64,000 nt of DNA. It comes from an uncultured Rubrobacteraceae bacterium. GTDB taxonomy: Bacteria; Actinomycetota; Rubrobacteria; Rubrobacterales; Rubrobacteraceae. Both the position numbers and the translations under genes were made by a program. This document shows positions 10,050 through 11,909 of this stretch, piece after piece (positions within the stretch are counted from its first letter, which is position 1; every line of letters begins with the position of its first letter). A model generated the notes under the pieces. It worked only from the letters and a program-made list of their open reading frames with translations, searched no databases and had not been told where the DNA came from. Location: the NCBI GenBank assembly GCA_902806095.1, contig CADCVF010000059.1:1-64000 (forward strand). Direction: 5' to 3'.

Positions 10050-10209
10050 CACGTCAGCATTTCAGCACGTCGCCTGTTCCAGGCGACTTGTCAGCATTTC
10101 AGCATTCTCCTGTAAATCCTGGCTGACTGGCTGACAAGCGAAGGCCGCAAGGCCTGAGCGTGCTGACATGCTGACAAGCGGAGGCGTCAGCCGGAGCGTG
10201 CTGAATTGC
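10050..10209. repeat. TCAGCA-type interspersed hairpin repeat cluster
   Basis: Multiple TCAGCA/TGCTGA units in both orientations surround small GC hairpins (GTCGCCTG..CAGGCGAC near 10067-10086; AAGGCC..GGCCT near 10140-10153). The left half carries TCAGCA forward and the right half TGCTGA, so the whole block is a loose inverted repeat. It fills the convergent gap between murB and the NYN gene. Related blocks occur at six other places in the window. Confidence 0.75.
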
Positions 10210-10781
10210 TATTGAGCTGACGGCTGAAGCCTGATGCCTGAAGCCTTCTTGAACAGATCCGGGATGTCTGCCAGGTCCGTATGCGCATCGCAGACGTCGA
10301 GGAGGGCCTGGGAGGTGCATTGGGCCGCGCTTATGACCTCGACGCGGATGCCTTTTTCGCTCTGGAGGTACTCGACGGCCTCGACGTAGTCTCCGTCGCC
10401 GGAGACGAGGACGTAGGTGTCGGCATGTCCTGCGAGACGCATCATGTCAACGACGACGCCTATGTCCCAATCGCCCTTGTGCGAGACCGTCCTCTCGCCT
10501 TCCGGGGTCAGGGTCTCGTGCACCACGAGCGGCTTGGAGCGCACCTTGTAGCCGAACTTGTTGAGGTTGTAGACGAAGGAGCGGGCCGAGGTCCCCTGGC
10601 CCTCTTCGGCCTCCTGCTTCTCGACGATGTAGAAAGTAGCCCTGAGGAGCTTCCTGTCCCCGACCGCCGCCGAGAGGAGCCTGGCGTAGTCGAGGATGCC
10701 TTTGTAGTAGTTCTTGATCGAGTGGTAGAGGTTCGCCCCGTCGACGAAGACGGCAACCCGCTCTGTATTTCTCCCTTCCAT
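10209..10781 (-). CDS. NYN domain (LabA/DUF88-like) PIN-fold nuclease
   Basis: About 190 residues. The N-terminal VAVFVDGANLYHS holds the first acidic residue of the NYN fold. KGDWDIGVVVDMMRLA and YVLVSGDGDYVEAVEYL hold the others, and the PIN-like acidic triad suggests a metal-dependent ribonuclease. ATG 10781 begins the conserved part; the longer upstream frame has no homology. It is transcribed toward murB, and no partner is encoded beside it. Related proteins act in RNA turnover; a specific target cannot be inferred. Confidence 0.85.
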   Translation of the reverse strand: MEGRNTERVAVFVDGANLYHSIKNYYKGILDYARLLSAAVGDRKLLRATFYIVEKQEAEEGQGTSARSFVYNLNKFGYKVRSKPLVVHETLTPEGERTVSHKGDWDIGVVVDMMRLAGHADTYVLVSGDGDYVEAVEYLQSEKGIRVEVISAAQCTSQALLDVCDAHTDLADIPDLFKKASGIRLQPSAQ

Positions 10782-10902
10782 AAGCCGCAATATTAGCAGA
10801 TAACTTCGCTTCGCCGTACAACACAGGCGGTTTACCGGGCACACGAACTGCGCTAATATCCATGGGCCACTCTGCGTCGACCCCAGAGAGGAGTGAGCAG
10901 GC

Positions 10903-11244
10903 ACGGACTTCGAGGTCAGCATAGCCGAGCATGCCAAGGGATACTCCATCGTCTCGGTGCGGGGCGAAATGGACCTCCATACCGCCCCGAGGTTCCAGTA
11001 CGCCGTAGAGCGGGCCGTCGAGAACGAGGGCGTAAGCGCCGTCGTCGTTGACCTCGGCGATGTCGCGTTCATGGACTCTACAGCCCTCTCGGCCCTCATG
11101 CGCTCCAAAGATACTCTTGGCCAGCAGGGGATCTCCCTCCGCCTCGCCGCCCCCTCGAAAGCTGTCGAACGCATCTTCTCCGTCACCGGCTTCCAGGACT
11201 ACTTCGATATCTTCCCCTCCCGCGAAGCCGCTATCCCCGCCTGA
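10903..11244 (+). CDS. STAS-domain anti-sigma factor antagonist, apparently starting at ACG
   Basis: The conserved STAS fold (SIVSVRGEMDLHTAPRF, VVVDLGDVAFMDSTALSALM with the phosphorylatable Ser, and VERIFSVTGF) needs a first beta-strand that is encoded upstream of the only conventional start, GTG 10957. Upstream of GTG the frame reads DFEVSIAEHAKGYSIVS and has no ATG, GTG or TTG before the TGA at 10894. ACG at 10903 lies 9 bases after GAGAGGAG (10886-10893), ideal spacing. So ACG initiation is proposed; a GTG 10957 start would remove strand 1. Such proteins bind anti-sigma kinases in a partner-switching pathway; no kinase is adjacent. Confidence 0.75.
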   Translation, partial: TDFEVSIAEHAKGYSIVSVRGEMDLHTAPRFQYAVERAVENEGVSAVVVDLGDVAFMDSTALSALMRSKDTLGQQGISLRLAAPSKAVERIFSVTGFQDYFDIFPSREAAIPA

Positions 11245-11247
11245 ACG

Positions 11248-11267
11248 ACGTATGGTATAACGTATGG
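11248..11267 (+). promoter_or_regulatory. Candidate VapB operator: direct repeat ACGTATGG
   Basis: Two exact copies of ACGTATGG (11248-11255 and 11260-11267) are separated by TATA, immediately before the ATG of the antitoxin gene. The spacer forms a TATAAC -10-like box. Ribbon-helix-helix antitoxins usually bind such repeats and repress their own promoter, so autoregulation is likely. Confidence 0.45.
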
Positions 11268-11268
11268 C

Positions 11269-11490
11269 ATGAAGAAGACCACCGTATACCTGCCCGAGGA
11301 CCTCAAATCCGCGCTCGGGCGCATTGCGGCGCAGAGGGGTCGCAGCGAGGCTGAGCTCATACGCGAGGCGGTTGGGGAGTTGGTCAAGGATTCCGAGCCG
11401 CCGCGTCCGCGATTGCCCTTGTTTTCGAGCGATGATCCAACGTTGGCTGAGAGGGTTGACGAGGAGCTTCGCGGCTTCGGAGAGTGGTAG
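11269..11490 (+). CDS. Ribbon-helix-helix antitoxin (VapB type)
   Basis: 73 residues. MKKTTVYLPEDLKSALGRIA followed by RSEAELIREAVGELV is a CopG-type ribbon-helix-helix DNA-binding domain. The acidic C-terminal tail would wrap the toxin. Its TAG stop lies inside the start of the PIN gene (7-base overlap), the usual coupling of antitoxin and toxin. Confidence 0.85.
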   Translation: MKKTTVYLPEDLKSALGRIAAQRGRSEAELIREAVGELVKDSEPPRPRLPLFSSDDPTLAERVDEELRGFGEW

Positions 11491-11909
11491 TCGTCCTCGA
11501 CACGAGCGGATTGCTCGCCGCCATCGACTCCGGACAACGTTTTCATGAAGTTGCAAGAGAGGCGTTGAATGGGATGTCGTCACCTCTCATTCTCTCTCCC
11601 TTCGTGCTGGCAGAACTCGACTATCTGCTGGCTACGCGGGTGGGTGGCGACGCCGAACTCGCCCTACTCCAGGAAGTGGCACGGGAAACGTACCGTCTGG
11701 CGCAGTTCTCGAACCGGGACGTGTCCGAGGCGAGGCGGATAATGGTGCAGTATGCTGACTTGCGTATCAGTCTCGCCGACGCATCCAACGTGGTGTTGGC
11801 GAACCGCCACGACACGCTCGACGTGCTTACGCTCGACGAGCGCCACTTCAGGGTCTTGAGGGGACCGGGTGGGCGTCCGTTTCGCCTTTTACCGGCCGAC
11901 GCTGGCTGA
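11484..11909 (+). CDS. PIN-domain ribonuclease toxin (VapC type)
   Basis: 141 residues. The PIN acidic residues appear as Asp in VVLDTSGLLAAID, Glu in FVLAELDYLL, and Asp residues in ISLADASNVVLANR and VLTLDERHF. VapC toxins cut tRNA or rRNA when their antitoxin is degraded. The GTG start overlaps the antitoxin stop. It ends about 45 bases before the CCA-adding-type gene, which may be incidental. Confidence 0.88.
   Translation: MVVVLDTSGLLAAIDSGQRFHEVAREALNGMSSPLILSPFVLAELDYLLATRVGGDAELALLQEVARETYRLAQFSNRDVSEARRIMVQYADLRISLADASNVVLANRHDTLDVLTLDERHFRVLRGPGGRPFRLLPADAG

Follow-up and report, generated by a model that had tools for sequence, protein, structure and literature searches.

Locus organization and start region

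We analyzed a 64,000-nucleotide stretch (hereafter, the window) from a Rubrobacteraceae genome, whose relatives are mostly recorded as Rubrobacter sp. or uncultured Rubrobacteraceae. The gene considered here lies on the forward strand (10903..11244) and comprises 113 codons, probably beginning with ACG at a position homologous to the ATG starts of related genes. Its product was assigned to the STAS/anti-sigma-factor antagonists by matches to PF01740 (3e-25; 88.5 bits against a cut-off of 22.6) and TIGR00377 (anti-sigma factor antagonist; 91.9 bits, above the curated cut-off of 53.45). Sequence matches to proteins of solved structure (4qtp, 1th8, 6m36, and 8ih8) were of the SpoIIAA/RsbV type, and the residues D58, S59, and T60 (DST) were invariant in 21/21 aligned STAS sequences. 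The conserved Ser of this DS(S/T) motif is the predicted phospho-acceptor. We read the gene as coding for an orphan antagonist of an anti-sigma factor, of the SpoIIAA/RsbV type, which probably helps to activate a stress sigma factor.

The STAS gene is placed between a divergent NYN-domain gene (10209..10781, reverse strand; PF01936, 3.8e-33), a syntenic marker conserved beside it, and cca, and this position is kept in genomes G003, G004, G006, and G014. An adjacent kinase/anti-sigma gene is common for anti-sigma-factor antagonists but not obligatory. The genome has 18 HATPase_c_2 matches, all of them on contigs other than that of the window (C59). Two other STAS genes of the genome adjoin a HATPase gene, and each shows a canonical codon (ATG, GTG, or TTG) at the apparent start; a SigB/SigF/SigG-type sigma gene is encoded on a different contig. 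A small gene pair between the STAS gene and cca (11269-11909), judged by eye to be antitoxin-toxin-like (VapBC-like), was matched in G004 and G014 and not in G003 or G006.

Upstream of the STAS gene, a putative -35 element TTTACC (10831..10836, forward strand) is separated by 17 nt from a putative -10 element TAATAT (10854..10859, forward strand), and both hexamers were identical in all eight genus orthologs and in G014. The short divergent NYN-STAS intergenic region (10780-10870) thus carries TTTACC-N17-TAATAT in 9/9 genomes. A strict consensus promoter scan of 10700-11300 returned no match, these two hexamers included. A sigma-B type promoter (GTTT-N14-GGGTT) was seen in G001, G002, G004, G006, and G014. 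It was dropped because four genomes (G000, G007, G003, and G005) have it in broken form, whereas all nine retain TTTACC-N17-TAATAT. In the window genome (G000), TAATAT also occurs on the other strand close to the NYN start, and the NYN transcript may therefore be nearly leaderless.

The ACG codon (10903..10905, forward strand) is preceded at 9 nt by the Shine-Dalgarno sequence GAGAGGAG (10886..10893, forward strand), for which pairing with the 16S 3' end CUCCUUUC, including one G-U pair, is possible; this end was read in G002 and G006, two of the four genomes searched. An in-frame TGA (10894..10896, forward strand) blocks any in-frame start above it, and the frame then reads GCA GGC ACG(10903) GAC TTC GAG GTC. 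The first in-frame canonical codon after this stop is GTG 10957 (residue 19), followed by ATG 10969 (residue 23). A preliminary description of the locus had placed the stop at 10894 and the Shine-Dalgarno sequence 9 bases before ACG 10903, and both positions were exact. It had also located the conserved first strand upstream of GTG 10957, in agreement with a structure model (mean pLDDT 92) in which residues 4-11 and 14-23 form strands. The octamer GAGAGGAG occurs 11 times in the window against 6.8 expected, a count reached in 10/100 shuffles; by itself the octamer is not rare, and it is its position and presence in relatives that carry weight. No leader structure beyond chance was detected in seven leaders (z from -0.96 to 0.98).

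Codon 1 across Rubrobacteraceae

We typed the codon homologous to ACG 10903 in 33 of 39 family genomes, the window genome included. The others comprised one without a match (G008), three in which the start was not located by motif (G011, G018, and G023), and two with a distant match only (G026 and G061), which were left untyped. The genus sample consisted of nine genomes, eight with a STAS ortholog; the ninth, G008, is 79% complete. The eight genus orthologs were 71-91% identical to the window protein and free of internal stops. Six of them carry ACG at codon 1 (G000, G001, G002, G004, G006, and G007) and two carry GCG (G003 and G005), whereas a canonical codon occupies this place in all 25 typed orthologs from the family's other genera (23 ATG, one GTG, and one TTG). 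The expectation that relatives would show ATG was thus borne out outside the genus and failed within it, where 0/8 orthologs are canonical at this codon. A base error at 10903, which had been named as grounds for rejecting the ACG start, was excluded because the non-canonical codon recurs in separate assemblies, that of G006 comprising two contigs.

On a cca tree of nine genomes, rooted on G014 by choice, two codon changes suffice, one producing ACG at the root of the genus and the other GCG in the pair G003 and G005. A tree of 33 STAS proteins required a minimum of five codon changes, not four, with G014 (ATG) beside G007 at weak support (84/0). Within the genus, codon 1 has changed only at its first base (A to G), in parallel with ATG to GTG. 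The Shine-Dalgarno sequence is GAGAGGAG in the window and GAGAGGAGGGGATC in G003, G004, and G005; that of G006 is the weakest.

Constraint on codon 1 and control genes

Across 28 pairs, pN/pS was 0.21 for codons 2-18 versus 0.33 for the rest of the gene. All eight genus orthologs have G as the third base of codon 1. Of the 51 columns with fourfold degeneracy in each of the eight genomes, codon 1 supplies the only all-G one; the other 18 invariant columns hold C throughout. All-G fourfold columns numbered 0/50 elsewhere in the STAS gene, 3/166 in cca (eight genomes), 3/68 in the NYN gene (seven), 0/28 in the sulfurtransferase gene (seven), 2/63 in murB (six), 6/116 in the SDR gene (five), and 12/150 in the nucleotidyltransferase gene (four). 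The invariant third-base G lends moderate support to codon 1 acting as a start.

Control starts were taken from six neighbor genes (response regulator, nucleotidyltransferase, murB, cca, sulfurtransferase, and SDR), omitting one case truncated at a contig end. Relative to the starts in G000, which were picked as canonical and are not all proven, a canonical codon was found at the homologous position in all 32 cases from other genomes (27 in the genus and five in G014). The NYN gene, for which the query began too far upstream, has an ATG within five codons in 8/8 genomes; the sortase-like gene was excluded from this scoring. In a wider control of G006-G004 orthologs passed through a codon-position filter, 98 of 120 pairs share a canonical start and four have canonical starts at different places. 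The remaining 18 lack a canonical start in at least one genome; judged by eye, they comprise the STAS gene, an SDR-type gene in which CTG is aligned, and for the rest shadow-like frames. In the unfiltered control over genome stretches, a canonical start was common to 100/162 pairs, and shadow frames overwhelmed the comparison. The SDR-type gene NALDLFRLDGKTAVVTGGG (G006:C1, ~1079130, with its ortholog on G004:C79) shows this CTG and lacks, near its N-terminus, a canonical start common to the two genomes.

Initiation machinery

The initiator tRNA has the anticodon CAT in 8/9 genus genomes, with no match in G007; ACG would therefore be read with a mismatch at the middle position. A search for an initiator tRNA with the anticodon CGT, specific to the stem sequence, gave two GGGCTCGTAACCC matches (G004 and G006), neither of which contains a tRNA.

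The infC gene, encoding IF3, also has an unusual codon in this family. GTA occupies the start place in 29 of 31 Rubrobacteraceae infC loci (L118-L148; one was cut and one was not located), the locus of the window genome being L120 (G000:C6:10993-11496). In 19 of the 29 GTA loci, a close upstream stop leaves no canonical codon, and the Shine-Dalgarno sequence, where shown, is mostly GAGGAG or AAGGAG at 9 nt before GTA. Rubrobacteraceae infC thus seems to start at the non-canonical GTA; the start is described as ATC in Streptomyces and ATT in Escherichia coli (PMC5472188).

Comparison with known systems

The closest parallel that we found is Streptomyces sigR, which starts at GTC and is repressed by IF3; a canonical codon at its start unleashes the regulon, and its ribosome-binding site is extended (Feeney et al., PMC5472188). 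The STAS gene is likewise a sigma-circuit gene of Actinomycetota with an extended Shine-Dalgarno sequence, and the codon at the start place is non-canonical across a genus in both cases (sigR, 32/34 GTC and two GTT, PMC5472188; STAS, six ACG and two GCG of eight). Unlike sigR, a sigma factor whose GTC start was established experimentally, the STAS gene encodes an anti-anti-sigma factor with ACG and no adjacent partner gene, and its case is built from sequence. It resembles infC, with its ATT or ATC starts and autoregulation (PMC5472188), in that the probable start is non-canonical, conserved, and expected to respond to IF3, and differs in that ACG fits the anticodon at the first and third bases with the mismatch in the middle, and in having no autoregulatory loop.

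With SpoIIAA, RsbV, and RsfB, the window protein shares a TIGR00377 score above the cut-off, the structural matches, and the DST motif; it differs from them in being encoded by an orphan gene beside NYN and cca with an ACG start. ACG also serves as an initiation codon in plant organelle and virus genes. Organellar ACG is often edited to AUG, and such mRNA editing is not known to occur in bacteria. We found no report of a natural ACG or GCG start of a bacterial gene in the openly licensed literature, and the main text of a survey of start-codon evolution (Belinky et al., PMC5622118) yielded no mention of "ACG".

Interpretation of the probable ACG start

The preliminary description had proposed ACG as the start, and this proposal is supported by homology with ATG starts, by ACG in 6/8 orthologs (GCG in 2/8), by purifying selection on the N-terminus, and by the loss of GTG 10957 in 6/8. 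We consider it likely that ACG 10903 is the start codon in the window genome, taken as a step on its own. In the full reading, the ordinary initiator tRNA (anticodon CAU) would read ACG 10903 by pairing at codon positions 1 and 3, with the C-A mismatch tolerated at the middle position and fMet as the first residue, and the strong Shine-Dalgarno sequence on a short leader would offset the poor codon. The antagonist would thereby be kept scarce relative to its kinase/anti-sigma partner, such that the sigma factor is not freed by chance. IF3 should discriminate against the ACG start, and synthesis of the STAS protein should increase at low IF3. We put the probability of this full reading at roughly 0.7. 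The analysis shows a conserved gene with no canonical start, retention of its codon 1, Shine-Dalgarno sequence, and promoter-like hexamers, and selection on its N-terminus; initiation at ACG, its low yield, control by IF3, and the identity of the partner are points that we infer. The suggestion that the regulator is "poorly expressed by design" is consistent with the kept bad codon and with the Streptomyces sigR precedent (PMC5472188), and the recurrence of this peculiarity in close relatives hints at deliberately low output. The argument from the stoichiometry of antagonist and partner rests on analogy, because no HATPase_c_2 gene lies on the contig of the window.

A stronger proposal is that the genus has an obligate NCG start (ACG, with GCG in one subclade) that ties stress sigma release to the fidelity of IF3-dependent initiation, in a family where infC, too, seems to begin with GTA. 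We regard this proposal as tentative and rather doubtful. The GCG codon in 2/8 orthologs, for which no bacterial precedent was found, is a point against the main reading of codon 1 as the start.

Alternative explanations

The ACG start might be merely tolerated, as a mutation fixed in the ancestor of the genus and compensated by the Shine-Dalgarno sequence, with no regulatory role. The two changes that explain the codons on the cca tree fit such a history, as does the ATG-bearing relative G014, which already carries the same strong Shine-Dalgarno sequence. However, ACG is a single transition away from ATG, yet ATG occurs in 0/8 orthologs at 71-91% identity. Moreover, among 61,358 ancestral AUG starts in 36 groups, only three switched outside GUG/UUG (two to CUG and one to AUU), and substitutions to AUG were significantly more common (Belinky et al., PMC5622118). 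We consider mere tolerance possible, albeit unlikely.

Another candidate is an ATC two codons before ACG/GCG, at codon -2 within GGAGGGGATC, which is present in 6/8 orthologs; it would be the start in these relatives and ACG/GCG would be internal, with G000 and G002 using ACG or another codon. Streptomyces infC starts at ATC (PMC5472188), and an ATC start would account for GCG in G003 and G005. The codon is missing from G000 (GCA) and G002 (GCC), and its spacing to the Shine-Dalgarno sequence would be 3 rather than 9 (in G006, 2 rather than 4). Among 70 G006 open reading frames with a strong Shine-Dalgarno match, the spacings were broadly distributed, with 8 the commonest (12 cases) and 3 as frequent as 9 (three cases each); spacing thus fails to decide between ACG and ATC. 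Also against ATC are the third-base G of codon 1 in 8/8 orthologs and the resemblance of GGAGGGGATC, which holds the ATC, to the complement of the 16S tail GGATCACCTCCTTTC, a tail read in two of the four genomes searched. Similarly, AGGAGGGGATC resembles the complement of the tail GATCACCTCCT, and the ATC may be part of the Shine-Dalgarno sequence. We judge an ATC start in the six relatives less likely than ACG/GCG and improbable, though more plausible in G003 and G005 than in the others.

Canonical codons in frame do not offer a common start. Between the upstream stop and codon 1, none is present in 5/8 orthologs (G000, G001, G002, G003, and G004). In the nearest relative, G002, the TGA also lies three codons upstream, and only GCA/GCC, GGC, and ACG precede the conserved DFEVSI in G000 and G002. 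The three other orthologs have an upstream canonical codon (TTG at -5 in G006, TTG at -11 in G007, and ATG at -9 in G005); these share no common place, and by eye none follows a strong Shine-Dalgarno sequence. Downstream, GTG at residue 19 (10957..10959, forward strand) would give a shortened STAS domain. It is the first in-frame canonical codon, occurs in G007 too, and yields a protein that still matches STAS at 5.4e-23. Nevertheless, it is poorly kept (2/8), being replaced by GCG in G002 and by GTC in five other orthologs; no Shine-Dalgarno sequence was seen by eye just ahead of it, and the codons 2-18 upstream of it are under purifying selection. According to the structure model, a start there would delete strand 1 and half of strand 2. 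We judged this GTG to be internal and its use as the start very improbable.

An out-of-frame start followed by frameshifting is hardly credible, since of the two candidates in the window, ATG 10862, 3 nt downstream of the putative -10 element, is confined to G000 and G002 (GTA or GGG in the other six), and GTG 10893 overlaps the Shine-Dalgarno sequence and is missing from 5/8 orthologs; no slippery site was noticed. Decay of the gene after loss of its ATG start has a very low probability, given the lack of internal stops in 8/8 orthologs, pN/pS values of 0.21-0.33, and the conservation of the promoter-like hexamers and the Shine-Dalgarno sequence.

Implications of a probable non-canonical start

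Gene finders assume ATG, GTG, or TTG, and the STAS protein would consequently be annotated 18 residues short or missed. If the reading of codon 1 as the start is true, GCG would initiate translation in the two genomes that carry it, a use of this codon of which the openly licensed literature gave us no bacterial example. A genus-wide start with a mismatch at the middle position would be a natural test of how much mispairing bacterial initiation tolerates. If true, the STAS gene would also join sigR as the second case of a sigma circuit in Actinobacteria whose regulator is dosed through its start codon.
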